Assembly: GCA_945883625.1 (NCBI GenBank)
Contig: CAMCXW010000027.1
Location: 1-32,413, forward strand
Reading direction: 5' to 3'
DNA length: 32,413 nucleotides
Source of the DNA: Spirosoma fluviale
GTDB lineage: Bacteria; Bacteroidota; Bacteroidia; Cytophagales; Spirosomataceae
Below, in pieces: positions 14,758 to 32,207 of the stretch; the first letter of the stretch is position 1, and every line of letters begins with the position of its first letter. The notes under the pieces are model-generated. The model did not search any database and was not told the DNA's origin. It was given only the letters and a program-made list of their open reading frames with translations. The translations under genes were made by a program, and so were the position numbers.

Positions 14758-14762
14758 AAACT

Positions 14763-16166: not shown

Positions 16167-16168
16167 GC

Positions 16169-17179
16169 ATGAAAAAAGTAGTCACATTTGGGGAAATTAT
16201 GGGGCGCTTAAGTCCTCCGGGGTATAGCCGCATTGTTCAGGCGCAGTCGCTCAATATAACTTTTGGTGGTGGCGAGGCGAATGTGGCAGGCGGATTAGCT
16301 CATTTAGGAATTCCTACAAAACACGTTACGCGCTTTCCAAATAATGAATTGGGAAGAGCTGCAGCTGGATATTATGCGCAGGTTGGCGTAGATACGTCGG
16401 ACATGATTTATGGTGAAGGGCGTTTGGGATTATATTTTGTGGAGTTTGGTGCGGCGATGCGTCCAAGTAAAGTGACTTATGACAGAGCAGATTCAGCTTT
16501 TGCAAATTTAGTTCCTGCTGAATTTAATTGGACCGAAATCTTCAAAGAAGCGTGTTGGTTCCATTGGACGGGCATTTCACCCGCCATTTCGGAATCTGCT
16601 GCGCAAGCCTTACGTGATGCGATTGCTACGGCTAATGCGATGGGGATCACGGTTTCAGCGGATGTGAATTACCGCAAGAACCTTTGGCAGTATGGAAAAA
16701 CTGTCCAAGAAGTGATGCCTGAATTAATCGACGGATGCGACATCATCGTGTGTGGCAAAGGGGATGCCGAAGATATCTTAGGTATCGTTCCCGATGGAAG
16801 CACGAAAAGCGGTTGGCATTCCATATCCCAGCAAATCATGGCGCGATTCCCGCGCTTGAAAAAAATCATTAATACGAAACGCGGACAAATTTCCGCTTCG
16901 CAAAATACACTTTCGGCTGTTTCCTTTGATGGCGAAAAAGTTATAAAATCGGATACAGTTGAGATTAGCCAAATTGTAGACCGCATCGGTGGTGGAGATG
17001 CTTTCATGGCAGGCTATATTTATGGCCAATTAATATATGGAGATGAGGCTCAATCCTTGTCATTTGGGGTGGCGGCCTCCGCGTTAAAGCATACCATAGA
17101 AGGTGATATCAATCGGGCGAATTTGGATGAAATAGAATTAGTAATGAAAGGCGACCTAAGTGGTCGTTTAAATCGATAA
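16169..17179 (+). CDS. kdgK: 2-keto-3-deoxygluconate kinase (PfkB family)
   Basis: KdgK phosphorylates 2-keto-3-deoxygluconate to KDPG with ATP. The 336-residue product shows PfkB-family hallmarks: N-terminal VTFGEIMGRLSPPG, the glycine-rich FGGGEANVAGGLAHLG sugar-binding segment, SADVNYRKNLW, and the C-terminal anion-hole motif DRIGGGDAFMAGY with D277 as catalytic base. The first Gly of the usual GAGD motif is kept and the Ala is replaced by Gly (GGGD). The gene sits two bases after uxaC and two before the aldolase, which makes KDG the most likely substrate rather than another sugar. Confidence 0.92.
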   Translation: MKKVVTFGEIMGRLSPPGYSRIVQAQSLNITFGGGEANVAGGLAHLGIPTKHVTRFPNNELGRAAAGYYAQVGVDTSDMIYGEGRLGLYFVEFGAAMRPSKVTYDRADSAFANLVPAEFNWTEIFKEACWFHWTGISPAISESAAQALRDAIATANAMGITVSADVNYRKNLWQYGKTVQEVMPELIDGCDIIVCGKGDAEDILGIVPDGSTKSGWHSISQQIMARFPRLKKIINTKRGQISASQNTLSAVSFDGEKVIKSDTVEISQIVDRIGGGDAFMAGYIYGQLIYGDEAQSLSFGVAASALKHTIEGDINRANLDEIELVMKGDLSGRLNR

Positions 17180-17181
17180 AT

Positions 17182-17844
17182 ATGGCCAGAAATAGTTCCG
17201 CGGTGGTATACCAGCGCTTCTCAGAAACTCCGATTATCCCTTTATTTTTTAATGCAGATTTGGGCGTTGCCCAGTCGGTGCTAAAAGCGTGCTATGATGG
17301 GGGTATTCGCGTATTTGAATTTACAAATCGCGGAGCAGAAGCGCCTGCAATTTTTGCCAAATTAATCCATTATTGCGAGAAGGAATGCCCTGATTTGGTA
17401 TTAGGTATAGGTACAATTTATGATGCGAAACAGGCGAATGAATTCATTCAAATGGGAGCTGATTTCATGCTACAGCCATTTACGACTCCTGAAGTAGGTG
17501 AAGTTTGTGCGAAACATGATGTGCCTTGGATGCCTGGCACGATGACCTTAACGGAGATTCGTAATGCAGAAGTTTTGGGTGCGAAGATTGTAAAAATTTT
17601 CCCAGGCAACGTGGTAGGACCTGGATTTGTAAAGGCACTCAAAGGACCGATGCCTCATTCGAAAATTATGGTGACTGGTGGCGTGGAACCTACGCATGAA
17701 AGCATGAAAACTTGGTTTGAAGCAGGTGCCGCCGTCGTAGGTATGGGGTCACAATTATTCCCTCCTGCGTTAATCGCCAAACAAGATTACCAAGGCATTT
17801 CGAATACTATAAGTGATTTAATACAAATTTATCGGAGCTTATAA
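17182..17844 (+). CDS. eda: KDPG/KHG aldolase
   Basis: This class I aldolase splits 2-keto-3-deoxy-6-phosphogluconate to pyruvate and glyceraldehyde-3-phosphate, the last step of the hexuronate route. In the 220-residue protein the catalytic Glu is E46 (VFEFTNRG) and the Schiff-base Lys is K138 (KIVKIFPGN). GIGTIYDAKQA, DFMLQPF, MPGTMTLTEI and MVTGGVEPT mark the phosphate- and substrate-binding loops of the TIM barrel. The motifs differ slightly from the enterobacterial form (EFTNRG for EVTLRT), a common variant in Bacteroidota. The start ATG is two bases beyond the kinase stop. Confidence 0.93.
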   Translation: MARNSSAVVYQRFSETPIIPLFFNADLGVAQSVLKACYDGGIRVFEFTNRGAEAPAIFAKLIHYCEKECPDLVLGIGTIYDAKQANEFIQMGADFMLQPFTTPEVGEVCAKHDVPWMPGTMTLTEIRNAEVLGAKIVKIFPGNVVGPGFVKALKGPMPHSKIMVTGGVEPTHESMKTWFEAGAAVVGMGSQLFPPALIAKQDYQGISNTISDLIQIYRSL

Positions 17845-17865
17845 TGCTCCAAAAACCTCTAAACC

Positions 17866-19146
17866 ATGAATAAAATAGGAACGTACCGCTGGCGAATTTG
17901 CGCTTTGCTCTTTTTCGCTACGACGATTAATTACTTGGATCGCCAGGTGATTGGTCTGTTGAAACCAGTCTTAGAAGATCAGTTCAACTGGTCAGAGACT
18001 GATTATTCGAATATTGTCATCACTTTTCAGGCGGCGTATGCCATCGGTTTATTGGGGTTTGGTGGGATCATTGATCGCATTGGAACTAAGCTTGGTTATT
18101 CAATTTCGATTATTGTTTGGAGTATTGCAGCGATGTTACATGCCATGGCAACAGGTACCTTAAGTTTTGCATTTATGCGTGGGTTGTTGGGCTTAGGCGA
18201 GGCGGGTAATTTCCCGGCGGCGATTAAGACAACGGCTGAATGGTTTCCTAAAAATGAACGCGCGTTAGCGACGGGAATATTTAATTCGGGAGCGAATATT
18301 GGGGCCGTGGCTGCTCCTATTTTAGTGCCTTGGATTTTAGGTATTTACGGCTGGGAAATGGCTTTTATTGTCACTGGGGCCATTGGATTTATTTGGTTGA
18401 TTTTCTGGTGGTTTTACTATGAGGTTCCTTTGAAACACAAGATGCTTTCTAAGGAAGAGTTCGATTACATACATGCCGACAAAGAGGAGAAAGATGAAAA
18501 TCAGGATCCGATTAAATGGGGACGGTTATTTGGGTTTAAACAAACGTATGCATTTGTATTTGGAAAGATGTTAACGGATCCTATTTGGTGGTTTTTCTTG
18601 TTCTGGTTGCCTTCGTATTTCAGTGAGCGCTTCCAATTAGATTTGAAAAAGCCGAGTTTGGAACTAATTATTGTATACACAGCAACGACCATTGGAAGTA
18701 TCGGTGGAGGATGGATGTCTGGCTATTTGATTAACAAGGGATGGCCATCATTCAAGGCGCGTAAGTATTCGATGCTGGGATTTGCCTTGGCAGTTGTGCC
18801 GATTATGTTGGCGCGTTACTGTGAAAACATCTGGCAAGCTGTTGCCTTAATTTCCTTGGCAGCGGCCGCGCATCAGGCTTGGAGTGCGAATATTTATTCG
18901 ATTGCGACAGACATGTTCCCGAAGAAGGCCGTTAGTTCGGTGATTGGTATTGGAGGGATGGCTGGATCTGTGGGTGGTATTTTCTTTCCTATGATCGTAG
19001 GGGCACTACTTGATAAATATAAGTTATTAGGTAATATCAATGATGGCTATAATATCATCTTCTTACTGTGTGGAAGCGCCTATATATTGGCTTGGGCGAT
19101 CATTTACACCATAGCTCCGAAACTGGAGACGGCGAATATCGATTAA
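17866..19146 (+). CDS. exuT: Hexuronate transporter, MFS (ExuT-like)
   Basis: This 426-residue major facilitator of the anion:cation symporter family has about twelve membrane segments. Family marks are INYLDRQVIGLLKPVL in the first helix, the loop motif GGIIDRIGTKLGY, and GLLGLGEAGNFPAAIKTTAE followed by WFPKNERALATGIFNSGANI. These match ExuT-type galacturonate/glucuronate transporters. It ends the uxaB-uxaC-kdgK-eda operon, 21 bp downstream of the aldolase, and supplies the substrate. No outer-membrane SusCD pair or polysaccharide lyase is linked, so it probably handles free uronates or products of a locus elsewhere. Confidence 0.9.
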   Translation: MNKIGTYRWRICALLFFATTINYLDRQVIGLLKPVLEDQFNWSETDYSNIVITFQAAYAIGLLGFGGIIDRIGTKLGYSISIIVWSIAAMLHAMATGTLSFAFMRGLLGLGEAGNFPAAIKTTAEWFPKNERALATGIFNSGANIGAVAAPILVPWILGIYGWEMAFIVTGAIGFIWLIFWWFYYEVPLKHKMLSKEEFDYIHADKEEKDENQDPIKWGRLFGFKQTYAFVFGKMLTDPIWWFFLFWLPSYFSERFQLDLKKPSLELIIVYTATTIGSIGGGWMSGYLINKGWPSFKARKYSMLGFALAVVPIMLARYCENIWQAVALISLAAAAHQAWSANIYSIATDMFPKKAVSSVIGIGGMAGSVGGIFFPMIVGALLDKYKLLGNINDGYNIIFLLCGSAYILAWAIIYTIAPKLETANID

Positions 19147-19263: not shown

Positions 19264-19271
19264 TATTTTTG
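19264..19271 (+). promoter_or_regulatory. Candidate -7 box for metallophosphatase gene
   Basis: TATTTTTG matches the TAnnTTTG element. No TTTG lies 19 bp upstream, so support is partial. Transcription would start near 19276, downstream of a possible TTG start (19269) and just before the ATG at 19290, which favours the ATG. Confidence 0.35.
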
Positions 19272-19289
19272 TTAAACGAAATACATGCC

Positions 19290-20105
19290 ATGCGGCCAAC
19301 TTACAAGACAATCGTCATCTCCGACTTACACTTAGGGAGTAAAGGAGCAAAAGCCAAAGAAGTAAATGATTTCCTACGCGCAAATTCTTGTCATCAACTG
19401 ATTCTCAATGGAGACATCATCGATGGCTGGCAATTGAAAAAGGGAGGTTCTTGGAAAAAGAAACATACCGGATTCTTTCGCGCCGTCCTTAAAATGATGG
19501 ACCGTTTTGATACGGAAGTTATTTATCTGCGCGGTAACCACGATGACTTTTTAGATCAGATTCTGCCTTTGAAAATTGGGAAGCAATTTTCGATCCGACA
19601 AGATTACATGCTATCTACGCATGGCAAAAAGTACTTTATCACCCACGGCGATATTTTCGATAGCATCACAAGCCAAATGAAATGGCTAGCTTATCTAGGG
19701 GATATCGGCTACACGTTTTTATTGTGGCTGAACAAGTGGTATAACCAATACCGCACTTGGCAAGGCAAACCCTATTATTCTTTATCTCAAGTTATCAAGC
19801 AAAAGGTTAAGGCAGCCGTGAATTTTATCTCCGATTTCGAGGAGAAATTAGCGGAACTAGCGAAAGCAAAAGGTGCCGATGGCATTATTTGTGGACATAT
19901 TCACAAAGCAGAAATCAAACAAATAGACGGAATCACCTACATGAACTCAGGGGATTGGGTAGAGTCTTTAACCGCACTAGTGGAAACACATGAAGGTGAA
20001 TGGCAATTAATTGATTACCCAGCTATTGACATATCTAATGATTTAATAGAAATTTTATGGGAAGGTTCATCTTTACCGTCCAAGGCGAAGGTCGCGGCCA
20101 TTTAA
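19290..20105 (+). CDS. UDP-2,3-diacylglucosamine diphosphatase-like metallophosphatase (COG2908)
   Basis: This calcineurin-like phosphoesterase is 271 residues from the ATG at 19290; the frame extends to a TTG at 19269 but that lies within the candidate promoter. All five metal motifs are visible: SDLHLGS (D12, H14), NGDIIDGW (D42), LRGNHDDF (N83, H84), ITHGD, and CGHIHKAEI. COG2908 includes LpxH, which cleaves UDP-diacylglucosamine in lipid A synthesis, and this is the usual annotation. The Bacteroidota group paired with a glycosyltransferase may have a different envelope-lipid substrate. Its last 49 bases overlap the next gene, implying tight coupling. Confidence 0.82.
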   Translation: MRPTYKTIVISDLHLGSKGAKAKEVNDFLRANSCHQLILNGDIIDGWQLKKGGSWKKKHTGFFRAVLKMMDRFDTEVIYLRGNHDDFLDQILPLKIGKQFSIRQDYMLSTHGKKYFITHGDIFDSITSQMKWLAYLGDIGYTFLLWLNKWYNQYRTWQGKPYYSLSQVIKQKVKAAVNFISDFEEKLAELAKAKGADGIICGHIHKAEIKQIDGITYMNSGDWVESLTALVETHEGEWQLIDYPAIDISNDLIEILWEGSSLPSKAKVAAI

Positions 20106-21199
20106 CGCAAGCGATCTCCTTAACTCAGATTGCCCAGGAAGCTGGGCATGAAATAGTCGGTTATGCCGTTGGTTCATTCCAAGGAAGGAAGATTCCACCC
20201 TTTTTTGCCCAATTTATAGGCAACACCCCCCTCATTCAATACGAAAGTCCATCCATCAATTACGGCAAAGGGAAGTCGGTGCAACTCGGGAAAACTGCCC
20301 TTCAGGCCTTTACGAAATTTGGTACCTACTGGAAAAGCGCGGCCCAATTAGGTGATTTCATTAACGCATTACAACCCGATGGAATCGTTAACTTCTATGA
20401 ATCTATCACCGGATTATATAATCTAAAATCAGGTTCTAAGGTCCCCTGCATGTCGGTAGGTCATCAATACCTATTGCTGAGTGACCATTTTGAAACGATT
20501 CCAGAAAAAGCGGTAGATCGATTTTTACTGAATATCAATACCAAAATTACGGCGATTGGTTCCAGCAAATTATTGGGATTGTCCTTCCGTTCTATGCCGA
20601 ATGACCTCAAACGCAATATCATTACCGTTCCCCCTTTATTACGCCAAGAAGTTAAAGCAATCCAACCGCAATCAGGAGAAAGGTGGTTGGCCTATTTAAC
20701 ACATTACCGACTAGCGGATGAAATCATGGCTTGGTCGTCACTAAATCCTGAGGTGAAATTGGATTGTTTTTGGGATAATCCTACGCGCAAAACAGCATAC
20801 CAATTTTCAGATTCGTTGACCTTCCATCCCATAGATGCCGAAAAATACCTAATCAAAATGACACACTGTGCGGGGTTAATTTCAACTGCAGGGTTTGAGT
20901 CGGTAGCTGAGGCGATGTACTTGGGCAAACCTGTCATGATGGTTCCTGTACCGAATCACATTGAACAAATGATTAATGCGCATGATGGGGAATTATCTGG
21001 TGCCGGGGTTCAGGCGCGTAGCTTTGACCTAACTATTTTTAAAGACTATTTACCGAAGCATACCTCGGTCCAAGATACCTTCCAGCACTGGGTGACGCAG
21101 GCAAATTTTGCCTATCACATGACAGATTTAATTCGTAAACCAGCAGCAGATGCTACATTCAGTCCCCGCAATGAAGAGGGCTTATCCACAAGCTGGTAA
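20057..21199 (+). CDS. GT-B glycosyltransferase (MurG/GT28-like)
   Basis: The 380-residue protein starts MGRFIFTVQGEGRGHLTQAI. Its glycine-rich GEGRGH loop is typical of the N-terminal domain of MurG/UDP-glycosyltransferase-type GT-B enzymes. The C-terminal half carries the donor-site signature GLISTAGFESVAEAMYLGKPVMMVP, followed by HIEQMINA. There is no signal peptide or clear membrane helix, so it probably works at the inner face of the membrane on a lipid or lipid-linked sugar. The ATG at 20057 lies 49 bp inside the preceding phosphatase gene; the GEGRGH loop next to it supports this start. Donor and acceptor are unknown. Confidence 0.82.
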   Translation: MGRFIFTVQGEGRGHLTQAISLTQIAQEAGHEIVGYAVGSFQGRKIPPFFAQFIGNTPLIQYESPSINYGKGKSVQLGKTALQAFTKFGTYWKSAAQLGDFINALQPDGIVNFYESITGLYNLKSGSKVPCMSVGHQYLLLSDHFETIPEKAVDRFLLNINTKITAIGSSKLLGLSFRSMPNDLKRNIITVPPLLRQEVKAIQPQSGERWLAYLTHYRLADEIMAWSSLNPEVKLDCFWDNPTRKTAYQFSDSLTFHPIDAEKYLIKMTHCAGLISTAGFESVAEAMYLGKPVMMVPVPNHIEQMINAHDGELSGAGVQARSFDLTIFKDYLPKHTSVQDTFQHWVTQANFAYHMTDLIRKPAADATFSPRNEEGLSTSW

Positions 21200-22784: not shown

Positions 22785-22949
22785 TAATAATCTTTACACT
22801 TTGGCATTAAGGAATTGTTAAATGCCTCATTTTAGCAGATCCTGCCCTCAATATGACCAAATTATTACTCACTAGTCTTTAATTATAACAAATCCATAAA
22901 ATTCAAGAAATACCCCAATAATGCAAATTGCCGACTTTTGCATTGCACT

Positions 22950-22968
22950 AAGAACTTAAACAGTTCTT
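22950..22968 (+). other. Hairpin abutting metallophosphoesterase start
   Basis: AAGAACT (22950-22956) and AGTTCTT (22962-22968) are perfect complements around a 5-nt loop and end two bases before the ATG at 22971. A GACTTTTG box (22933-22940), one mismatch from TAnnTTTG, lies just upstream and could drive this operon. The hairpin could then form in the very short leader and affect translation. Confidence 0.5.
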
Positions 22969-22970
22969 TA

Positions 22971-23891
22971 ATGAATAGAAGAACTTTATTACATCAATTT
23001 AGCTTTTTAGCAGGAGCATTAAGCTTACCTCAACTGGGTCAAGCCAAATCAACAACCCCTCAAAAACCCTTTCGCATTGCTCACATCACTGATGTGCATA
23101 TCATGCCGTTGATTGGTGCAGCCAAGGGATTTTCAAAATGTTTGGAACATATCCAAAATTTGCCTGTAAAACCTGATTTAATATTTAATAGCGGAGACGC
23201 CATTATGGATGCCCATCGCGGCGGACGCTCTGTAGCTGAAAAACAATGGAAGCTTTGGAATGAAGTTGTAAGTAAAGAACTATCAACGCCTATAATTCAA
23301 TCGTTAGGCAATCATGATATTTGGGTTAAAAACGAATCCCCCCAGGCAATTTTAGATGGTAAGAAGTGGGCGCTAGATGAGTTAAAAGAACCTAAAAGCT
23401 ACTTTTCCAAAGATCTTGGGTTATGGCATTTGATAAGCCTCGACAGCATTAGCCCGAATAATAAAGGAAAATGGTATACAGGAAAATTAGATGAAGAACA
23501 AATGGATTGGCTAGAAAAGGAGCTGGATTCCATTTCTACTCTTAAGCCAATCATGATCGTATCGCATATTCCTATTTTGGCTGCATGTATATTTTTTGAT
23601 GGAAATCGTTTTGAAAAAAATCAATGGAATATTCCTGGTCGGTGGATGCATGAAGATGCGAGTCAATTAAAAGACTTATTTCTAAAATACCCCAATGTAA
23701 AACTGGCAGTAAGCGGTCATATTCATTTACTTGATCGTGTTGAATACAACGGCATAACCTACTGTTGCAATGGTGCAGTCAGTGGCGCCTGGTGGGCTGG
23801 GAATTACCAACAAACCCAACCGGGATATGCCGTTATTGATTTATACCCCAACGGACATTTTACAAACACATATATAAATTATCAATCTTAA
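22971..23891 (+). CDS. Exported calcineurin-like metallophosphoesterase
   Basis: From the ATG at 22971 the product is 306 residues. The start MNRRTLLHQFSFLAGALSLP resembles a twin-arginine or Sec signal peptide with cleavage near GQA-KS, so the enzyme is probably periplasmic or cell-surface. An in-frame TTG at 22938 would bury that signal and is disfavoured. The metal motifs are HITDVHI, NSGDAIMD, LGNHDIWV, VSHIPIL and VSGHIHLLD, as in the Icc/CpdA 3',5'-cyclic nucleotide phosphodiesterase branch; however, exported members of this group need not act on cyclic nucleotides. It heads a four-gene plus-strand operon, 12 bp before the NeuB-like gene. Confidence 0.85.
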   Translation: MNRRTLLHQFSFLAGALSLPQLGQAKSTTPQKPFRIAHITDVHIMPLIGAAKGFSKCLEHIQNLPVKPDLIFNSGDAIMDAHRGGRSVAEKQWKLWNEVVSKELSTPIIQSLGNHDIWVKNESPQAILDGKKWALDELKEPKSYFSKDLGLWHLISLDSISPNNKGKWYTGKLDEEQMDWLEKELDSISTLKPIMIVSHIPILAACIFFDGNRFEKNQWNIPGRWMHEDASQLKDLFLKYPNVKLAVSGHIHLLDRVEYNGITYCCNGAVSGAWWAGNYQQTQPGYAVIDLYPNGHFTNTYINYQS

Positions 23892-23903
23892 TCAACATCG
23901 TTT

Positions 23904-24815
23904 ATGAAAACAATAACCCTAAATTCCGGAAAACAACTCGGTTTTGGAAAACCATGTTATGTGATAGCAGAAATCGGTATCAACCACAATGGATCCTTGG
24001 AAACTACAAAACAATTAATTGATGCGGCTGTTGAAGCAAAAGTAGATGCCGTGAAATTTCAAAAACGTACCCCTGAAATTTGTGTGCCAAAAGATCAATG
24101 GGAAATTATTCGTGAAACTCCATGGGGGAAAATGACCTACATAGATTATAAAAGAAAAACAGAATTTGGTATTTTAGAATATTCCGAAATTGACAATTAC
24201 TGCAAATCAAAAGGGATTGATTGGTTTGCATCTGCTTGGGATGAACCATCTGTCGATTTCATGGAACAATTTGAACCTGTTATGTACAAATTAGCTTCCG
24301 CATCTTTAACAGATGACTCGCTTATTCGTAAAATTTGTGCAACAGGTCGCCCAATCATGATTTCAACGGGTATGTCACGTATAGATGAAATCACTTTTGC
24401 CGTTGAATTAATTCGCGAATATGGAGATTATCCATTAATGATTGCTCATGCGACTTCAGCCTATCCTTGTAAACCCGAAGAATTAAATCTGCGCATGATT
24501 CATACCTTACAACACATGTATCCTGATTACATCATAGGTTATTCTGGTCATGAAACAGGCTTGAGTACGACCGTTTCTGCCGTGGCTATAGGTGCACAGT
24601 TTGTAGAACGTCACTTTACACTTGATCGTGCGATGTGGGGATCTGATCATGCAGCGTCGGTAGAACCACAAGGATTTGTGCGTTTAGTCAAAGACATCCG
24701 TGATACTGAATTAGCACTAGGTGATGGCGTTAAAGTTGTTTACGAAAGTGAAATCGGACCAATGAAAAAACTTCGCGTTAACATCACCGAAAATCGCTTA
24801 GTCGATACACTGTAA
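23904..24815 (+). CDS. NeuB-family ulosonic acid synthase without SAF domain
   Basis: This family condenses phosphoenolpyruvate with an aldose to give a 3-deoxy-2-ulosonic acid. The 303 residues cover the TIM-barrel part only: AEIGINHNGS (22-31), VDAVKFQKRTP (47-57), KLASASLTDDSL, ISTGMSRIDEI, AHATSAYPC, GYSGHETG (H215), VERHFTLD (H237) and WGSDHAASVEP (H249). Known sialic, legionaminic and pseudaminic synthases are about 340-350 residues with a C-terminal antifreeze-like SAF domain that reaches over the partner's active site; here it is absent and the protein stops soon after the barrel. The motifs GYSGHE and WGSDHAA also differ from the usual GYSDHT and PGPDHKAS. A non-standard substrate is therefore likely. 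The hydroxylase gene follows five bases on. Confidence 0.87.
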   Translation: MKTITLNSGKQLGFGKPCYVIAEIGINHNGSLETTKQLIDAAVEAKVDAVKFQKRTPEICVPKDQWEIIRETPWGKMTYIDYKRKTEFGILEYSEIDNYCKSKGIDWFASAWDEPSVDFMEQFEPVMYKLASASLTDDSLIRKICATGRPIMISTGMSRIDEITFAVELIREYGDYPLMIAHATSAYPCKPEELNLRMIHTLQHMYPDYIIGYSGHETGLSTTVSAVAIGAQFVERHFTLDRAMWGSDHAASVEPQGFVRLVKDIRDTELALGDGVKVVYESEIGPMKKLRVNITENRLVDTL

Positions 24816-24820
24816 TCCAT

Positions 24821-25621
24821 ATGACGTTTAGCGTAACACAAATTTGTTCGCTTTTACTCGTAGCGGGAACTATCACACTTATTTACTTGGAAAGGAAATT
24901 CCCCTACCGTAGGGGAATTCCTTTTTTTAGAGATGGTTTTTGGACAGACGTAATAGGCTATACAATTATCCAAAGCTTCCTATTAAAAATTGTCATTTTT
25001 GACTACATCATTTTACCCATGCAAGGTAGAATGACTTGGGACGGATTGCCTCAAATTTCCACTTGGCCAGTATTACTGCAAGTATTATTCTTTTTAATTA
25101 CGCATGACTTCTATATCTATTGGTTTCATCGGTGGCAGCATGCCAACAAGTTTTTATGGCGTACCCATGAGGCGCATCATTCAAATGAACAAGTAGACTG
25201 GATAGCAGGCATGCGATCACATACTGTCGAAATTATTATCAATCAAACGGTTGAATTTTTACCAATTATTATTTTGGGGGCTGACCCTGTAGTTATTCCT
25301 ATAAAGGGGTTAATCGATGGGCTTTGGGGGATGTTGATTCATGCGAATATCAATTTCAGTTTTGGAAAACTTAAATATATTCTGAACGGCCCTGAATACC
25401 ATTTATGGCATCATGCGGATCATCAAGATGTTTTTCACGCGAATTTTGCAACGAAATTTAGTATTTGGGATACGATTTTTGGAACTTTATACGAAACTTC
25501 AAAGAAGCCAATTCATTGGGGATTGTACTATGAGTTTCCTAAAAATTATTTTGCCCAACACCTATACGCCTTTTACAGATGGACTTTTCAAGCCAAAGAA
25601 AAAATAAAAAATGATGACTAA
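24821..25621 (+). CDS. Sterol desaturase / fatty acid hydroxylase family protein
   Basis: The 266-residue integral membrane protein has the full set of di-iron histidine motifs of the superfamily: HDFYIYWFHRWQH (H95, H103, H107), THEAHHS (H116, H119, H120), H174 in LIHANI, and HLWHHADH with VFHANF (H194, H197, H198, H201, H206). Hydrophobic helices flank these at about 5-22, 43-66, 82-102 and 140-175. Members hydroxylate or desaturate lipids, sphingolipid bases, carotenoids or ether lipids; the substrate cannot be read from sequence. It sits between the NeuB-like gene and an SMR gene that it overlaps by 11 bp. Confidence 0.88.
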   Translation: MTFSVTQICSLLLVAGTITLIYLERKFPYRRGIPFFRDGFWTDVIGYTIIQSFLLKIVIFDYIILPMQGRMTWDGLPQISTWPVLLQVLFFLITHDFYIYWFHRWQHANKFLWRTHEAHHSNEQVDWIAGMRSHTVEIIINQTVEFLPIIILGADPVVIPIKGLIDGLWGMLIHANINFSFGKLKYILNGPEYHLWHHADHQDVFHANFATKFSIWDTIFGTLYETSKKPIHWGLYYEFPKNYFAQHLYAFYRWTFQAKEKIKNDD

Positions 25622-25979
25622 AGCTTGGGTATTTCTATATGCTGCGGCAATCTTTGAAACAGGCTGGACATACGCCTTAAAATTTTTGAGTTTTTCAGAC
25701 TTGAAAACCGCGTGGAGTTTGCAAGAAAATTTAGGCAAAGCCAGCCTTCCATTTATAGCCTATGTATTATTCGGAGGGGCCAATATTTATTGCCTATCTG
25801 AAGCGCTAAAGGAAATTCCCACGGCAACGGCCATCGCAATTTGGACAGCGGTTTCTTTAGTATTAATAAAAATTTGTGATGTGTACTATTTCAAAATACC
25901 TACTAACTACCCAGAGTTAGTTTTCATGGCACTGATTGTCATCGGTATTATTGGCATGAAGCAATATTCCGCTAGTTAA
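25611..25979 (+). CDS. Small multidrug resistance-family membrane protein
   Basis: At 122 residues with four predicted helices, this matches the EmrE/SugE-type SMR family. E16 in AIFETGWTYALKF corresponds to the essential E14 of EmrE, and PTATAIAIWTAVSLVLIKICD matches the conserved helix 3. The C-terminal helix carries ALIVIGIIGMK. Two successive ATG codons (25611 and 25614) could start it. SMR-fold proteins export cations or guanidinium; relatives ArnE/ArnF flip undecaprenyl-linked aminoarabinose. Given the surface-sugar genes around it, a lipid-sugar flippase role is possible but unproven. The 3' end overlaps the convergent HAD gene by 8 bp. Confidence 0.82.
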   Translation: MMTKAWVFLYAAAIFETGWTYALKFLSFSDLKTAWSLQENLGKASLPFIAYVLFGGANIYCLSEALKEIPTATAIAIWTAVSLVLIKICDVYYFKIPTNYPELVFMALIVIGIIGMKQYSAS

Positions 25980-26469
25980 TCCCTTTCGCTTCTAAAATCA
26001 TTTCCGCCATTTCGCGAAAACAGCCCGCACCACCAGGTAAAGACAAGACCACATCAGCTTGTTTTTTCACTTGGGCTAACGCGTCAGATGGGCAAAAAAA
26101 TACGCCCACAAACGGACGAACAACTAGGTCATTCACATCATCTCCGATATAAGCAATTTCATTTGGCTTTATTTGTAAGCGTTCAATAATTTCCGCCAAA
26201 ACACGTTCTTTATCCTTAATGCCTAAATGCAATTCCGTGATCGCCAATTTCGAGGCACGCTGTTTCACAGATGGAGACATTTCCCCTGTTATTATACCAG
26301 TAGGAACTTGAGCAAACTTTCGCAAACGCTCCACACCCATTCCATCCCGAATATTGAATTTTTTTAAAACCTCCCCTGTTTCTCCGTAGTAAACACCCCC
26401 ATCAGTCAAAACCCCATCGCAATCGGTCAATACCAATTTAATCGCAGCTAATCGCTCTTGCATATTCAT
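25972..26469 (-). CDS. KdsC-type HAD phosphatase (ulosonic acid phosphatase)
   Basis: The 165-residue protein is a cap-less C0 HAD hydrolase like KdsC, which removes the phosphate from Kdo-8-phosphate after condensation. It shows the nucleophile loop LVLTDCDGVLTDGGVYY (D16, D18), the family FNIRDGMGVERLR segment, a Thr in motif II (TGIITGEMS), Lys-containing LHLGIKDK and motif III GDDVNDL (D110, D111). Related enzymes serve Kdo, KDN and N-acylneuraminate-9-phosphate. In this cluster the likely substrate is the phosphorylated product of the NeuB-like enzyme. It is the last gene of the minus-strand operon, 3 bp after the SDR stop. It may instead be the cell's ordinary KdsC, since kdsA and kdsB are not here. 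Confidence 0.88.
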   Translation of the reverse strand: MNMQERLAAIKLVLTDCDGVLTDGGVYYGETGEVLKKFNIRDGMGVERLRKFAQVPTGIITGEMSPSVKQRASKLAITELHLGIKDKERVLAEIIERLQIKPNEIAYIGDDVNDLVVRPFVGVFFCPSDALAQVKKQADVVLSLPGGAGCFREMAEMILEAKGIN

Positions 26470-26472
26470 CAG

Positions 26473-27273
26473 TTATATACTTGTAAATCCTCCATCCACA
26501 ACCAAATTCGCTCCCGTCATATAAGCGGAAGCATCACTCGCCAAAAACACCAAAGCACCCGCATAATCCGTTATTTTCGCCATCCTCCCCAAAGGCGTTT
26601 TTTTTGCATATTGTTGTTGGAAAAAATCCGCCTGCCCATTCTCCACGCCACCCGGCGAAAGCGTATTTACGCGAATTCCTTTATCTCCCCAATACGCAGC
26701 CAAATAGCGTGTAAAATTAATCACCGCCCCTTTTGTCGTTGGATATGCAGGGGTCTTAAAAAACAATTGCTCCCCAGCTTCATTCCGATATAGCTGCTGA
26801 TCTGGACCTACCATCCCGTACGTCGACGCAATATTAATGATGCTGCCTCCAGAAGCAAGCATCAATTTGCCGAATTTTTGGGATACCAAAAATAACCCCA
26901 TCACATTCACCTCCCAAGATTTTTGAAATAATTCAACCGGGTAATTTTCAAAAGATGACATGGCTAGTACATCTGCCGACTCCTGGAAATGGTCATTGAT
27001 CGCAGCATTATTTACTAAAATATCGATGCGACCCAAGCTACTTTGGATTTTAGCGGCGGCAGATTCTACGGATGGTTCACTGCGGATATCCATCGCCAAA
27101 GCGATTGCATCATGGCTAAGAAAAGCCGCATATTCAGCACAAGCTTGGGCGTTCAAATCCGCAACAATGACGCGTGCTCCCGCATCACGAAGCGCCACAC
27201 AATGTGCCTTTCCAATGAGGCCTAATGCGCCAGTTACCAAAGCAATCTTACCCGTTAAATCAAAAAGCTCCAT
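26473..27273 (-). CDS. Short-chain dehydrogenase/reductase
   Basis: This is a classical SDR of 266 residues with the NAD(P)-binding TGALGLIG (14-21), acidic VADLNA after strand 2 (favouring NAD), NNAA, the catalytic S150 and YxxxK (Y177, K181), and a C-terminal GANLVVDGG. An insertion between the catalytic Ser and Tyr (VGPDQQLYRNEAGEQLFFKT) is longer than usual and may shape a sugar pocket. Its start codon overlaps the aminotransferase stop by one base (TAATG). In context it probably oxidises or reduces a sugar hydroxyl/keto group, for example making the ketone that the aminotransferase uses; the exact reaction is not known. Confidence 0.88.
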   Translation of the reverse strand: MELFDLTGKIALVTGALGLIGKAHCVALRDAGARVIVADLNAQACAEYAAFLSHDAIALAMDIRSEPSVESAAAKIQSSLGRIDILVNNAAINDHFQESADVLAMSSFENYPVELFQKSWEVNVMGLFLVSQKFGKLMLASGGSIINIASTYGMVGPDQQLYRNEAGEQLFFKTPAYPTTKGAVINFTRYLAAYWGDKGIRVNTLSPGGVENGQADFFQQQYAKKTPLGRMAKITDYAGALVFLASDASAYMTGANLVVDGGFTSI

Positions 27274-28607
27274 TAGATTCTTGGCTTAATATTATGATCC
27301 GTTACTTTACGAAATACTGCTTCCAATACCTCCCCTTTCAACAAAATCTGAACATTGTCCGCTTCGATTGCCTCTTTCAACCGCGGTAAAATTTCAGCAT
27401 ATGCGCTCAACGTATATTCCATGTCCTCCTGCGTATGACTGTAACACATGTTGTGAAAACCGCCCCACAAAATTCCTTTTTGCAAAAGCTCCTGTTGCAT
27501 AAATGTTTTCAATATCAAAGCATCTTGACCAGGTGCTTGATAGGTGAGCATGCTCCGACAAGGATAACCAACACAAGACGTGATGTGATGCATTCCTAAA
27601 TCTTTGGCTAACTGGTTATAAGAATCTTGCATAAAAGCACCTTTGATCGCCAAGACTTCTGGAACTTGATGTGTTTCCATAAATTCAATCGTTGCCATGG
27701 AAGCGGCTAACGAAAGTGCTTCACCACCAAAAGTCGTAAAAGAGAAAACTTCGTTGTCAAATAAAGACATAACATCCGTTCGCCCTGTCAAAATCGCTAA
27801 TGGCATTCCATTCGCACACGCTTTCGAATACGTTGCCAAATCTGGCTTTACACCAAAATATTCTTGAGCTCCACCCATAGCAATTCGAAACCCCGACCAC
27901 ATCTCATCGAAGATTAATAAAGTCCCGTTCGCTTGACAAATTTCAGCCAATTCTTGCAAGAATCCTTCTTGTGGTTTTTCAAAAATAAATGGCTCCAAAA
28001 TGACGCAAGCAACCGTTTCGTCAAGCGCATTTTTGATTGATTCGATGTCATTAAATGCAAACGTAAAGCTCAAGTTTTTCAATGCTTCTGGGATCCCTTT
28101 ACCTCTTGATGTGATACCGATGTACCAATCATGCCACCCGTGATATCCGCAGCAAAATACTTTATCTCGGCCTGTAAATGCGCGCGCGACACGAACTGCC
28201 GCAGAGGTGACATCTGCTCCCGTTTTGCTGAATTTCACAGCCTCCGCATTAGGAATTATTTGTTTGATTTTCTCGGCTAGTTCTACTTCCAATGGATGCA
28301 TTAATGAAAACGTAATGCCATCTTTTAATTGCTCTTGAATTGCGTTGTCAATTTCTGGGATACAATAACCCAAAGACAAGGGTCCAATGCCCATGTTAAA
28401 ATCGATGTACTCATTTCCATCCACATCCCAAACACGTGCACCTTTCCCTTTTTTCAGGTAGACGGGCGCTACTCCTTTTGAGAATTGGCCAGGGCCTTTC
28501 GCCAACGTTTGCGTGATCGGGTGCTGTACCTGCAAACCTCGTTGGTACAAAGCCTGGGACTTTTCAATCTGAGGTAATTGGGTATTAAATTCAACATGAT
28601 TTGCCAT
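27273..28607 (-). CDS. Class III aminotransferase (glutamate-1-semialdehyde aminomutase-like)
   Basis: The 444-residue PLP enzyme is of the acetylornithine/GSA branch. It shows GNEYIDFNMGIGPLSLGY, FSKTGADVTSAAVRVARAFT, CGYHGWHDWYIG, the PLP-ring Asp in LLIFDEMWSGFR, and the Schiff-base Lys K262 in TYSKACANGMPLA. Housekeeping HemL has SKTIGGGLPVGA-type residues around the lysine, while SKACANGMPLA is typical of paralogues in polysaccharide clusters. It probably transaminates a keto- or aldehyde-sugar intermediate for the cluster product rather than making 5-aminolevulinate. It lies 16 bp downstream of the transketolase C-terminal subunit. Confidence 0.9.
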   Translation of the reverse strand: MANHVEFNTQLPQIEKSQALYQRGLQVQHPITQTLAKGPGQFSKGVAPVYLKKGKGARVWDVDGNEYIDFNMGIGPLSLGYCIPEIDNAIQEQLKDGITFSLMHPLEVELAEKIKQIIPNAEAVKFSKTGADVTSAAVRVARAFTGRDKVFCCGYHGWHDWYIGITSRGKGIPEALKNLSFTFAFNDIESIKNALDETVACVILEPFIFEKPQEGFLQELAEICQANGTLLIFDEMWSGFRIAMGGAQEYFGVKPDLATYSKACANGMPLAILTGRTDVMSLFDNEVFSFTTFGGEALSLAASMATIEFMETHQVPEVLAIKGAFMQDSYNQLAKDLGMHHITSCVGYPCRSMLTYQAPGQDALILKTFMQQELLQKGILWGGFHNMCYSHTQEDMEYTLSAYAEILPRLKEAIEADNVQILLKGEVLEAVFRKVTDHNIKPRI

Positions 28608-28623
28608 GGATTCTCTAGTTTAA

Positions 28624-29517
28624 TTACAAGGATTTTATTTGTTCAACCAATCCTGCCGGATCTAATTTTTCATACGCTAATACTTCGTTGAGTCTACCTG
28701 GCTTAAACCATTTAGCGTCAAAGCCAATCGGTGAAACAGGAATTTGTAAGCCTGCCCGCACTAAAAATTCAGCTACAATACTGAATAAACCACCTGTAAT
28801 AAAGTGATCTTCAATCGTGATTAACTGATTCGTATTTCCAATCAAGTCGCGTATCGCCTGCTCATCCAAAGGCTTAAGGCTTCGCATATTAATCAAGCCT
28901 ACTTCCAATCCTTCCGCTTCCAATAGTGCTTTGGCATGAAAGCATTGTTCAAACATAAACCCATACGTTAAGATGGTTAAATCTTTTCCCTTTGAAATAA
29001 CTTCGGCTTTACCCGCTTCGTAAGGTGCGTGTTTGTAAACGGCGGGAAGTGTAGAAATTCGCACATAACTTGGATGAGGGCTTGCCCAAATACTCGGTAA
29101 CATTTGAACCAAATCTTCCGCATCCGCTGGTGCAAAAACTTCCATACCCGGAATGCCGCGCATGATGGAAACATCCTCGATAGCTTGATGAGTAGGACCG
29201 TTACCATCAGACAAAACACCGGGAATGAAACTGCTCATTTTAACAGGCAGATTTGCGATGCCTACGGATGTACGTGTGAATTCAAATGCACGCATAGTTA
29301 AGAATGCCGACAGCGCATGAACGACCGGGATTCTTCCGCGTAATGCCAAACCCGCGGCAGCACCTAACATCGTTTGTTCGGTAATACCAGTATCGATAAA
29401 ACGATCGCCTAGGGCTTGTGGTAGATTGCGAACCAACGCGCGGTTTTCAGCTGTCATGACGACAAAGCGTTCATCCGCAAGGGCAGTCTCTTTTAATAAT
29501 TCTTCGTATGTTATCAT
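28624..29517 (-). CDS. Transketolase-like C-terminal subunit
   Basis: The 297-residue protein equals the pyrimidine-binding and C-terminal domains of transketolase. It has the cofactor-activating Glu in DTGITEQTMLGAAAGLALRG (E47), SDGNGPTHQAIEDVSIMR, VFAPADAEDLVQML, and the C-terminal domain from LTILTYGFMFEQC to TIEDHFITGGL. It must pair with the N-terminal subunit encoded immediately upstream (5 bp gap) to form the active thiamine diphosphate site. Split transketolases of this kind transfer two-carbon units and recur in secondary and glycan gene clusters. Confidence 0.92.
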   Translation of the reverse strand: MITYEELLKETALADERFVVMTAENRALVRNLPQALGDRFIDTGITEQTMLGAAAGLALRGRIPVVHALSAFLTMRAFEFTRTSVGIANLPVKMSSFIPGVLSDGNGPTHQAIEDVSIMRGIPGMEVFAPADAEDLVQMLPSIWASPHPSYVRISTLPAVYKHAPYEAGKAEVISKGKDLTILTYGFMFEQCFHAKALLEAEGLEVGLINMRSLKPLDEQAIRDLIGNTNQLITIEDHFITGGLFSIVAEFLVRAGLQIPVSPIGFDAKWFKPGRLNEVLAYEKLDPAGLVEQIKSL

Positions 29518-29522
29518 AACTA

Positions 29523-30377
29523 TTATCTTACTACAAGCGTCTCCGCCGTTAATGTCGCTTGACTAATTTGATGTAATTCATCCATTAATGATTGAATTTC
29601 TGCCGATGAGAAATTACAGAACCAGCGATCTGAACGCGCTTCGATAGAAGGTAAACCTTTCCCGCGAACGGTATCGCAAATTATGACATGAGGTCCTGGA
29701 ACCGTATTTGTCATTTCAAATGCCTGTTCAAGTTGGGTGAAATCATGCCCATTCACCCGCTGCGTTTGCATTCCAAAAGCTTTAAATTTATCAACCAAAG
29801 GTTCCAACGGAATTAAATCCTCCGTAGCCATGTTGGCCTGAAATTGATTCCGATCAATCACAAAAATCAAATTAGTTAGCTTATGTGCGTTCGCTACCAA
29901 AAAAGCTTCCCAACAAGAACCTTCGTTTAATTCACCATCGCCCATGACGCAAACCACGCGATTAGCGGTCTTGGAAATTTTCATATCCATCGCAACGCCA
30001 ATGGAAACTGCAGGCAACTGCCCCAAGGACCCTGAATGAAATTCGACACCAGGAATTTGACGGTTCGGATGCCAATAAATATGATCGGTGGTAGATAGAT
30101 GATTTGCGAGTCTATCAGATTCTATCCAGCCTAACTCAGCAAAAATGCCGTAAAGCGCCGGGACATCATGGCCTTTGGAAAGAAAAAGATAATCCCTTTT
30201 CGGATCAGTTAAATTCGATTTATCAATATTTAAAAAAGATGTGTACAAGTAGGTCAACACATCCACTGCTGAAAGTGAAGCACCTAAAAAACATCCTCCC
30301 TCCGTAGCCATCGGAATAATGCGTTCACGGACTTTTAAAGCAAATGCTTGTAATTCAGTTTGCGAGTCTTGGTTCAT
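29523..30377 (-). CDS. Transketolase-like N-terminal subunit
   Basis: The 284-residue protein equals the diphosphate-binding domain of transketolase: FLSKGHDVPALYGIFAELG, HPNRQIPGVEFHSGSLGQ, then the thiamine diphosphate/Mg motif GDGELNEGSCWEA (146 on), ending at N177 in VIDRNQFQ. Housekeeping transketolase is one chain of about 660 residues, so this pair is a dedicated, split version. Its ATG overlaps the stop of the SpsF-like gene by 4 bp (ATGA), the tightest form of coupling. A role in building or shortening the carbon chain of the cluster's sugar is inferred. Confidence 0.92.
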   Translation of the reverse strand: MNQDSQTELQAFALKVRERIIPMATEGGCFLGASLSAVDVLTYLYTSFLNIDKSNLTDPKRDYLFLSKGHDVPALYGIFAELGWIESDRLANHLSTTDHIYWHPNRQIPGVEFHSGSLGQLPAVSIGVAMDMKISKTANRVVCVMGDGELNEGSCWEAFLVANAHKLTNLIFVIDRNQFQANMATEDLIPLEPLVDKFKAFGMQTQRVNGHDFTQLEQAFEMTNTVPGPHVIICDTVRGKGLPSIEARSDRWFCNFSSAEIQSLMDELHQISQATLTAETLVVR

Positions 30378-31180
30378 AATACTTGCTTGGTTTGTTCGGG
30401 AGTAATTGTTTTCAACTCCGCTAGGTGATTACGATACCAATTTACTCCCGCTAAGGAGCGATTAATTCGTAAAATTGAAGGTTCAAAAGTGAGTAAATCC
30501 AATATATCCCGTAAATTAAAATGAGGATTAAGTGGGTATAGTCGGTTGTAAACAGCTTCGATAAATGTTAAATCTTCTGGATAATCTAAGGTAAAGCGAT
30601 GACTCATTTCGTAGTTTAGCCCCGTTTCCCATAACACATTTCCAATACGAAATTGGTCAAGATTCTCCCAAAAATAGGGGGTTGTATGTTCTCTTTCTAA
30701 CGGCTTTTTTGCTTCCTTCCAAGCTGTTTCTAAGGCACAGAAAGACATCACTTCTACGTCGTTCCCATCCGGATATGATTGTGGATGCAAATTGCTTACA
30801 TAATCAAATTGAGCTTGATTTTTGATGTAATATCCGATAACACGGTCAATGACAGCAGGATCAATCAACGGGCAATCTGACGGTATTTTAACAATGTGCT
30901 TCGCATTAAAATGTTTGGCGGCCTGATAATGCCTATCTAATAAATCCGTTAGTGAACCGCGAAAAACCGTGTACCCCTCAAGCTCACAAATCTCAGTTAG
31001 GACATCATCCTCAGGTTGATCAGATGTAATAACCACCAGATTAAATTGCCATTTGCTTTGCTTGATCCGTTCAAGTTGATGAAAAAGAATGGGCTTATCT
31101 TGAACCCATTTCAATACCTTGCCAGGCAGCCGAGTAGAACTCATGCGTGCTTGAACAAATATGGATAAATCAGTTTGCAT
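30374..31180 (-). CDS. SpsF/NeuA-type cytidylyltransferase
   Basis: Taken from the ATG at 31178-31180, the protein is 268 residues and begins MQTDLSIFVQARMSSTRLPGK. The frame also offers an ATG at 31199-31201 (275 residues), but family members normally have the QARMSSTRLPGKVL nucleotide loop within about ten residues of the start. Other marks are VITSDQPEDDVL, FRGSLTDLLDRHYQA, KIPSDCPLIDPAVID and DGNDVEVMSFCALE. This is the PF02348 group that includes CMP-Kdo and CMP-sialate synthetases and SpsF, so it should activate the ulosonic acid with CTP. It overlaps the upstream transferase gene by 11 bp. Confidence 0.86.
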   Translation of the reverse strand: MQTDLSIFVQARMSSTRLPGKVLKWVQDKPILFHQLERIKQSKWQFNLVVITSDQPEDDVLTEICELEGYTVFRGSLTDLLDRHYQAAKHFNAKHIVKIPSDCPLIDPAVIDRVIGYYIKNQAQFDYVSNLHPQSYPDGNDVEVMSFCALETAWKEAKKPLEREHTTPYFWENLDQFRIGNVLWETGLNYEMSHRFTLDYPEDLTFIEAVYNRLYPLNPHFNLRDILDLLTFEPSILRINRSLAGVNWYRNHLAELKTITPEQTKQVL

Positions 31181-32207
31181 AATTCGATTCGAAATTGGCA
31201 TAAAGACTCAACCGATTTATAAACATTTCTTTGGGGCCTGTATGCAACAAATAATCCCGGCAAATGGTCGCAATGTGTTCGGCTGAATTTCCCCCATTTT
31301 GAATTGGAAGTAAAGATTTCAACTCCTCTATATCAAAATACGAGTGTACCGGTTTTCCTAATGCAATGCCCGCATAAACCACCGTTGAATACTGTGTAAT
31401 TAATTCCGAACAGTTGGCAATCATTTCATTCGTTACGCCATCAGAATAAATTAAAGTATCATCCGGACAAACCGATTTGATCTCACGAACGGCACGCGAT
31501 ATTTGTTCATTCGGATGCAACTTGATCAGTAATCGTCTGCCTGCTGCGATGTCAACACACGATTGTAAAAATGCCAAACGATCCTCATTTCGATAGGTTT
31601 CGCGCATGTCAGAGGTCGCAACCATCACATAGTCTTGGTATGGGAAATCATTTTGCCGAAATTGCTCTAGATTATCATAATTAGGAATCCCCGTGACGAC
31701 AACTTTGGAGGCATCCGTACCATGCTGAATAATATAATCGCGATAACCCGTGGAGGCAGCACAATAGATATCACATAAGTTAGAAGTACCATTTAACGAA
31801 GTTCCTATACTTAAATACCTAGGTAGCTTTAATCGTTTTATCAACTTACTAATATTCGTAAATGGATCAATCATTCCTTCTTGTACCCAAATAGTTTTTA
31901 TTCCCTTAAACTTGCTAGGGAATAATAAATCTGAGCAAAAAACAATCAAATCATAGGAGTTTTTAAGTGCTTGATAATCCAAACGCATTCCTTGGGATTT
32001 CATATACTCCTCAGCTTTATTTCGTAAGGGCAAACCCATCACTGTATTATCTAATATCCCTTTCTTAATTGCATAGGAGATAATTGGATTATCTGAAAAG
32101 TACTGGCTAAACAAACAATCAAATTCAGTCAAATGCGAAGCAATTTGCTGCATTTGGGTTGTTTGATTCATAGAACCTGTCAAAAATAAAATACGTTGAG
32201 ATTTCAT
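31170..32207 (-). CDS. GT-B-like transferase, CDP-glycerol transferase / capsule type
   Basis: The 345-residue cytoplasmic protein starts MKSQRILFLTGSMNQTTQM. Its C-terminal half has the fold signatures of CDP-glycerophosphotransferase-like and capsule GT-B enzymes: VVVTGIPNYDNL, DYVMVATSDMRETYR, LLIKLHPNEQI and SELITQYSTVVYAGIALGKPV. The N-terminal half is divergent and not recognised in detail. As first gene of the minus-strand operon that makes and CMP-activates an acidic sugar, it is a good candidate for the enzyme that transfers that sugar, but the donor is inferred from position only. A phosphotransferase role is also open. Confidence 0.68.
   Translation of the reverse strand: MKSQRILFLTGSMNQTTQMQQIASHLTEFDCLFSQYFSDNPIISYAIKKGILDNTVMGLPLRNKAEEYMKSQGMRLDYQALKNSYDLIVFCSDLLFPSKFKGIKTIWVQEGMIDPFTNISKLIKRLKLPRYLSIGTSLNGTSNLCDIYCAASTGYRDYIIQHGTDASKVVVTGIPNYDNLEQFRQNDFPYQDYVMVATSDMRETYRNEDRLAFLQSCVDIAAGRRLLIKLHPNEQISRAVREIKSVCPDDTLIYSDGVTNEMIANCSELITQYSTVVYAGIALGKPVHSYFDIEELKSLLPIQNGGNSAEHIATICRDYLLHTGPKEMFINRLSLYANFESNYAN

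Follow-up and report, generated by a model that had tools for sequence, protein, structure and literature searches.

A conserved ten-gene cassette for a proposed variant of ulosonic acid biosynthesis in Spirosoma fluviale and other bacteria

The window, by which we mean an entire contig of 32,413 bases (C27) from a draft genome of Spirosoma fluviale (G000; 2.31 Mb, 88.8% complete), carries a ten-gene cassette that appears to encode a conserved variant of ulosonic acid biosynthesis. We read this cassette as a self-contained route to a 3-deoxy-ulosonic acid, whose sugar would be reshaped by a transketolase, an oxidoreductase and an aminotransferase and whose acceptor is probably a lipid, and we put the probability of this reading at about 0.58. 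Ulosonic acids shape bacterial surfaces, and the type of acid is often predicted from the NeuB synthase alone.

In the proposed pathway NeuB would condense phosphoenolpyruvate (PEP) with a phosphorylated aldose free of any N-acetyl group. The phosphatase would then strip the phosphate from the NeuB product, the SpsF-type cytidylyltransferase would form the CMP-sugar and the GT-B-like transferase would transfer the CMP-activated ulosonic acid. The transketolase, oxidoreductase and aminotransferase would reshape and aminate the sugar, before or around condensation. A membrane lipid is the probable acceptor; a fatty-acid-hydroxylase family protein would modify it and a small membrane protein (LplT in Methylomagnum) would flip it. 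The sequence itself gives the gene families, their linkage and fusions, the distinct NeuB clade and the missing SAF domain. Condensation, dephosphorylation and CMP activation by the cassette are well supported by the families of its genes; we infer the two-carbon transfer, oxidation, amination and product, and likewise the NeuB substrate, the order of the sugar-reshaping steps, the transfer, the lipid acceptor and its flipping. A more specific version is tentative and on balance doubtful: an undescribed amino-ulosonic acid, its aldose supplied by these three activities rather than from UDP-GlcNAc, would be carried on a membrane lipid. Bacteria would then have their own equivalent of sialylated sphingolipids, and it would have passed through several phyla as one unit.

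Gene content, conservation and linkage

An earlier, sequence-only reading of the window had named eight of these genes as a candidate undescribed locus. All are present at the positions stated there, as intact open reading frames (ORFs), and the families assigned to them agree with Pfam and NCBIfam, the GT-B assignment resting on a predicted structure. The named genes are conserved together, but the locus is larger than was supposed: FAH and SMR, which went unmentioned, sit in line with NeuB and are conserved cassette members, and they make a link to lipids possible. The ten intact frames of the cassette, and one neighbouring gene, are as follows; below, G, L, C and f numbers denote genomes, loci, contigs and families.

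31170..32207, minus strand: GT, GT-B fold transferase, 345 aa (AlphaFold2 model and Foldseek)
30374..31201, minus strand: CYT, SpsF-type cytidylyltransferase, 275 aa (PF02348, 3.9e-28)
29523..30377, minus strand: TKN, transketolase N-terminal half, binding thiamine diphosphate (ThDP), 284 aa (PF00456, 1.3e-23)
28624..29517, minus strand: TKC, transketolase C-terminal half, 297 aa (PF02779 and PF02780 above cut-off)
27273..28607, minus strand: AT3, class III aminotransferase, glutamate-1-semialdehyde-like, 444 aa (PF00202, 5.4e-49)
26473..27273, minus strand: SDR, oxidoreductase, 266 aa (PF13561, 1.9e-50)
25972..26469, minus strand: HAD, phosphatase of KdsC/Kdn-9-phosphatase type, 165 aa (TIGR01670, 145.5 bits, above the cut-off of 106.95)
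23904..24815, plus strand: NeuB-family PEP-condensing synthase without SAF domain, 303 aa (PF03102, 3e-77)
24821..25621, plus strand: FAH, membrane protein of the fatty-acid-hydroxylase family, 266 aa (PF04116, 2.4e-29)
25611..25979, plus strand: SMR-family small membrane protein, 122 aa (PF00893, 1.3e-12)
22938..23891, plus strand: neighbouring metallophosphoesterase, 317 aa (PF00149, 4.7e-14), ending 12 bases upstream of NeuB

Searching genome contigs with AT3 turned up at least 80 loci with identities of 57% or higher. For 57 of the 80 there are at least 4.2 kb upstream and at least 5.2 kb downstream of AT3; counts on these long-flank loci exclude the other 23, which have short flanks. A cassette gene was counted when its match covered at least 40% of the query at 30% identity or more, and the per-locus map, used for mixed-strand and transketolase-less loci, required at least 50% of the query. 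Because loci were chosen by AT3 similarity, linkage within the 80 is biased towards AT3, and a sample of 296 genomes from the phylum serves as the less biased test. Greedy ORF calling skips genes in places or puts them on the wrong strand (L115, L138 and L139 are examples), so that flank ORF lengths and absences are rough.

The gene set is strongly linked in other genomes and in several phyla, as the sequence-only reading had proposed to check. The hosts belong to Bacteroidota, Ignavibacteriota, Chloroflexota, Chlorobiota, Myxococcota and Methylococcaceae, and include named strains of Aquirufa, Taibaiella, Mucilaginibacter and Hymenobacter. In Aquirufa nivalisilvae 59G-WUEMPEL and A. beregesia 50C-KIRBA the genes of the cassette show 60–92% identity. 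A five-gene core (GT, CYT, AT3, SDR and NeuB) occurs together in 54 of the 57 long-flank loci, and the exact ten-gene order GT-CYT-TKN-TKC-AT3-SDR-HAD-NeuB-FAH-SMR in 29. Gene by gene, the long-flank loci contain GT (55), CYT (56), TKN (54), TKC (54), SDR (55), NeuB (55), HAD (44), FAH (47) and SMR (40); over all 80, FAH was found in 58 and SMR in 43. The cassette genes found lie on one strand in 53 of the 57. The mixed-strand loci are L036 and L022–L024 (two Aquirufa strains and a Cytophagaceae metagenome-assembled genome, MAG), and in the latter three NeuB-FAH-SMR is inverted just as in the window. Beyond the eleven query genes the commonest shared ORF cluster reaches just 9 of the 80 loci, so the cassette is a discrete unit. 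Within the genus of the window its distribution is patchy, with an AT3 match at 75% identity or more in 7 of 24 relatives.

In the 296-genome sample, with E-values up to 1e-140 for AT3 and 1e-80 for NeuB, AT3 was found in 44 genomes (14 families) and NeuB in 111, and every one of the 44 AT3 genomes has both. AT3 lies within 5 kb of NeuB in 37 of the 44, from 12 families. The hypergeometric probability of the co-occurrence is 2.6e-22, with relatedness ignored; AT3-NeuB linkage is far from chance. The seven AT3 genomes with NeuB beyond 5 kb come from families f28 and f41, and two from f28 (G131 and G050) have the cassette in two separate blocks, GT-CYT-TKN-TKC-AT3 and SDR-HAD-NeuB-FAH.

HAD and NeuB are fused in frame at 13 loci, which belong to Taibaiella, Mucilaginibacter and two Bacteroidetes MAGs; in-frame fusions likewise join CYT to TKN in L048 and L049, and TKC to AT3 in L084. 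These natural fusions connect HAD with NeuB, and the transketolase with both CYT and AT3.

More distant relatives were also seen. Four plasmid matches to AT3 (two haloarchaeal, two alphaproteobacterial), from 36 at 32–41% identity, were followed, and none of the four lies inside such a cassette. In the same genus as the window, G015 (C8:249499-251539) and G010 (C4:137164-139899) have a distant AT3 (36%) next to a cytidylyltransferase-family gene, and the two may belong to a further pathway of broadly similar type. Marine virus AG-345-L05 (Kyanoviridae; L121:6358-9816) has clustered SDR-, cytidylyltransferase- and NeuB-like genes, 38, 30 and 47% identical to those of the window.

Condensation, dephosphorylation, activation and transfer

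The window NeuB scores 259.8 bits against PF03102 (cut-off 22.1) and is the one NeuB-family match in G000 at E 0.001. Residues E23, K51, H216, H237 and D248 are invariant in a 36-row alignment, and we take the first four to be catalytic. The protein misses the cut-offs of TIGR03569 (N-acetylneuraminate/legionaminate synthase; 253.9 bits against 399.65), which presumably covers legionaminate synthases, and of TIGR03586 (pseudaminic acid synthase; 210.3 bits against 340.25). Pfam finds in it no match to the SAF (antifreeze-like) domain of classical nonulosonic acid synthases, and its 303 aa compare with 336–351 aa in 12 TIGR03569/TIGR03586 rows. The 56 cassette NeuB rows have 236–326 aa, lengths that are not independent since rows were preselected below 330 aa and include some trimmed matches. 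In the NeuB of Neisseria meningitidis an arginine of the SAF domain touches the N-acetyl group of N-acetylmannosamine; loss of the domain would thus fit a substrate without an N-acetyl group.

In a tree of 56 NeuB rows, the cassette NeuBs form one clade (100/100) with three standalone NeuBs of family f30 and that of L146, apart from the TIGR03569 rows, the TIGR03586 rows and four PDB references. The phylogeny called for by the sequence-only reading therefore places the window NeuB outside the neuraminic/legionaminic (Neu/Leg) and pseudaminic (Pse) groups tested. Its nearest groups are NeuBs linked to over-cut-off phosphatases for the 9-phosphate of ketodeoxynonulosonic acid (Kdn) (98/82 and 100/96), in neighbouring but separate clades; these are 31–38% identical to the window NeuB, and six of the nine have about 337–353 residues. 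The tree holds a chosen subset of cassette rows, excludes L169 (a 3.3 kb contig in which no NeuB was found) and has no Bacteroides thetaiotaomicron synthase among its references; its bootstrap had not settled, so support values are rough. Another NeuB tree omitted ORFs of 330 aa or more (fused ones and some early starts), and its reference rows sit on very long branches.

The window HAD scores 157.1 bits against the Kdn-9-phosphatase model NF058599, below the cut-off of 180, and nine further cassette HADs score 139–169 bits; the model is the best one for 8 of the 10 HADs tested. The highest score on the cassette side is 173.6 bits (G076), and none reached 180. This closeness fits a phosphorylated intermediate. 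Together the relations of NeuB and HAD suggest a phosphorylated aldose rather than a classical N-acetylated hexose, and probably not the plain Kdn precursor. Two genomes (G051 and G056) carry the cassette and, on other contigs, a Kdn-type phosphatase locus, and five (G035, G064, G080, G092 and G123) carry it together with a PseI that passes its cut-off; such coexistence suggests a different product.

Two loci show NeuBs of this clade in other surroundings. At L146 (6288-9214) three genes stand in a row, for an SDR, a CTP_transf_3-HAD fusion of 407 aa and a NeuB of the cassette clade, with no transketolase or AT3 in the stretch. At L140 (9020-10498), in family f30, a standalone HAD-NeuB pair adjoins an HSP90 gene.

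A first alternative is that the acid is plain Kdn: NeuB and HAD would make it from mannose-6-phosphate and PEP, CYT would give CMP-Kdn, and the transketolase, AT3 and SDR would make the acceptor or modify Kdn. The best-model ranking of the HADs, the position of NeuB beside Kdn-phosphatase-linked NeuBs (three of which are also too short for a SAF domain) and the standalone pair of f30 all speak for it. Yet no cassette HAD was seen at the 180-bit cut-off, NeuBs beside over-cut-off Kdn phosphatases are distant in sequence, and two genomes keep both systems. We lower a pure Kdn role because the over-cut-off loci have a different NeuB, allowing that the nearest three of nine are also short, and regard plain Kdn as unlikely.

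For activation, the best PDB match of CYT is 6oew ('Cytidylyltransferase'); against the KdsB model TIGR00466 it scores 33.4 bits and misses the cut-off of 155.2. For transfer, an AlphaFold2 model of GT (45 rows; pLDDT 93.1, pTM 0.90) was compared by Foldseek and matched GT-B enzymes, with UDP-GlcNAc 2-epimerases at the top, then a capsule polymerase (one entry CMP-bound) and a bacterial polysialyltransferase; TM-scores to the query are 0.41–0.61 among the 50 matches listed. A profile search found the TagF-like polymerase 8qoy (E 6e-4), and Pfam at E 0.01 on the 45 rows found Epimerase_2 in 37 (best 5.5e-7) and Glyphos_transf in 16 (best 7e-7). The alignment has conserved QEGM and KxHPNE stretches, which we take to resemble the (D/E)-(D/E)-G and HP motifs of bacterial sialyltransferases. 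We considered GT as a UDP-GlcNAc 2-epimerase, as Pfam and Foldseek suggest, and lowered this candidate: the window GT scores 22.4 bits against PF02350 Epimerase_2, missing the cut-off of 30.6, and, aligned with 3ot5, reads sDiREt at the HRREN motif, in which the catalytic histidine of these epimerases lies. A CMP-sugar transferase is the likeliest role. Of the core that the sequence-only reading proposed (condense, dephosphorylate, CMP-activate and transfer), the first three steps stand by family, outside those known clades available for testing, while transfer is less certain.

Sugar reshaping, the acceptor and surrounding genes

The split transketolase has both its ThDP-binding and pyrimidine-binding halves (PF00456, PF02779 and PF02780 over cut-off), and the best PDB match of TKN is 6yak, a split-chain transketolase N-component. 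The pair is missing from seven loci (L060, L066, L072, L074, L092, L096 and L098), in whose draft genomes TKN matches occur only in frames of at least 600 aa; an ordinary transketolase may stand in there, which argues for conventional ketol transfer. AT3 is closest in the PDB to glutamate-1-semialdehyde aminomutases. It scores 352 bits against NF004856 (cut-off 486), and all 25 of its best NCBIfam models are likewise below cut-off. Its K262 and D234, presumably with roles related to pyridoxal phosphate, are invariant in a 26-row alignment. At L146 and L167 an SDR gene lies beside NeuB and HAD genes, and AT3 and transketolase were not found in those stretches; the SDR may thus act on the NeuB branch, and oxidation then amination of a precursor becomes one of several options. 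The aldose had been proposed to arise by two-carbon transfer, oxidation and amination. The families are present and the scheme stays conjectural, with a split transketolase that is not obligatory and other options for the SDR.

The lipid link is our main addition to the sequence-only reading. The best NCBIfam model for FAH is OlsE (NF052566), at 101.2 bits and far from the cut-off of 475. Close to its downstream end, the cassette is accompanied by an OlsF-type gene (cluster c15) in five Ignavibacteriota loci (L067, L068, L079, L088 and L099), with the PF19576 and PF13444 domains shown for L068 and L079. On a Methylomagnum plasmid, the HAD of the cassette is followed by LplT, a PF13444 GNAT N-acyltransferase and a PF01553 lysophospholipid acyltransferase. 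The OlsE-like FAH, with the OlsF-like or OlsB/OlsA-like acyltransferases and LplT of some other hosts, hints at a lipid acceptor, which is plausible from these families; SMR would be a candidate lipid or glycolipid flippase.

In a second alternative, the transketolase and AT3 would serve the acceptor instead. They would make its amino-alcohol or aminosugar base, which, N-acylated by OlsF/OlsB-like enzymes, would give a sphingoid-like lipid that GT caps with the ulosonic acid. In its favour, two f28 genomes have the cassette in two separate blocks, PF13444-type acyltransferases adjoin some cassettes, and passages of PMC6200933 report a Kdn-linked sphingolipid in Emiliania huxleyi. Set against this, the OlsF-type cluster occurs in 5 of the 80 loci only and not in the window, and transketolase-less loci still keep AT3; we think this alternative improbable.

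Several observations weigh against the self-contained pathway as we read it. Of the nine Kdn-phosphatase-linked NeuBs, the three closest are likewise short (287–297 aa), so SAF absence is not special to the cassette. Cassette-type NeuB occurs without AT3, at the thresholds used, in 67 of the 296 genomes (64 of them family f30), so the NeuB substrate may not need AT3. HAD was not found in 13 of the 57 long-flank loci, which, with the seven relatives missing the transketolase, means that neither is strictly required in the cassette. A second split-type TKN-like frame of G000 (C13:13077-13856; 302 aa, 36% identity), perhaps a housekeeping enzyme, makes the split form not special to the cassette. 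The likeness of GT to UDP-GlcNAc 2-epimerases leaves the transfer step uncertain. FAH is absent from 10 and SMR from 17 of the 57 loci. A PF13444 search of G000 gave no match, and 7 of the 24 genus relatives gave weak ones (about 21–25 bits, in frames of 141–161 aa), four just over the cut-off of 22.4; four of the seven are in cassette-bearing genomes (G004, G009, G010 and G016). Ornithine lipid is thus unlikely as the general acceptor, and without a good OlsB/OlsF match we set it aside for the genus of the window.

Around the cassette, a homologue of the adjoining metallophosphoesterase occurs in 5 of the 80 loci, as an accessory, lineage-limited gene. Other Metallophos genes adjoin the cassette in Ignavibacteriota (cluster c11, with the domain shown in L066), in Chloroflexota L081 and in L093. 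Upstream in nine loci, mostly Chitinophagales, lies a gene of the GDSL-lipase family, whose domain is shown in L045 and L046. In the window, a Metallophosphoesterase and Glyco_trans_1_3 gene pair lies upstream at 19269-21199; L022, L023 and L036 have a pair (clusters c23 and c16) near the cassette, alike by size. Translations of 13306-19146 read as a hexuronate-utilisation-like operon (tagaturonate reductase, glucuronate isomerase, KDG kinase, aldolase and MFS transporter). Promoter and terminator scans were no richer than shuffles (23 sites against a mean of 29.7, and 9 against 9.5).

Remaining alternatives and known systems

A third alternative, a divergent neuraminic, legionaminic or pseudaminic acid pathway with its precursor genes elsewhere in the genome, is very improbable. 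NeuB, CYT and HAD are a kit shared with such pathways, and G000 has one UDP-GlcNAc 2-epimerase-family gene over cut-off on C1, unlinked to the cassette. Against it stand the low NeuB scores on the Neu and Pse equivalogs, the separate clade, the missing SAF domain and G035, which has the cassette and, at a given completeness of 100%, no Epimerase_2 match at E 0.001. No precursor gene was found among the shared flank clusters examined; dehydratase and N-acetyltransferase genes elsewhere in G000 were not searched for. The usual precursor genes had been called absent, and this holds for the conserved cassette genes but not for the genome, given the C1 gene. A role in the ketodeoxyoctonate (Kdo) pathway is set aside as unlikely because G000 has elsewhere a Kdo-transferase-domain gene (C20) and a strongly matching CTP_transf_3 gene (C46), which reads as KdsB and has a like in all 24 genomes searched.

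That the locus is undescribed agrees with the open-licence PubMed Central literature, the only literature searched and hence a limited negative, in which we found no description of the gene set. A SAF-less NeuB clade tied to a transketolase, AT3 and lipid-type genes is liable to annotation as N-acetylneuraminate synthase, and so to misleading predictions; the Methylomagnum cassette NeuB is indeed annotated 'N-acetylneuraminate synthase family protein'. Because the cassette is compact, keeps its order, has natural fusions and occurs in named strains, its product is directly testable.

Among known systems, the ornithine lipid genes OlsA, OlsB, OlsF and OlsE share with the cassette a FAH nearest to OlsE and, by some cassettes, OlsF- and OlsB/OlsA-type acyltransferases; they differ in that FAH is far below the OlsE cut-off and PF13444 is without a match in G000 and weak in its relatives. 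The Kdo pathway (KdsA/KdsC/KdsB/WaaA) has a KdsC-like phosphatase and a CTP_transf_3 enzyme too, whereas the condensing enzyme of the cassette is NeuB-type and its CYT misses the KdsB cut-off. The Neu/Leg (TIGR03569) and Pse (TIGR03586) pathways share PEP condensation and CMP activation; the cassette NeuB fails their cut-offs and forms a separate SAF-less clade, and the cassette genes include no epimerase, dehydratase or conserved N-acetyltransferase. The last comparison is with the Kdn route of B. thetaiotaomicron, whose Kdn-9-P synthase is AAO76821 according to passages of PMC10483923. Like the cassette, this route condenses with a NeuB-family enzyme and has a KdsC-like phosphatase as well as a CMP-transferase. 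From Kdn systems the cassette differs in a HAD below the NF058599 cut-off and in its NeuB, to which the Kdn-linked NeuBs, six of nine full length, are 31–38% identical; and we know of no split transketolase, AT3 or SDR in the B. thetaiotaomicron route.

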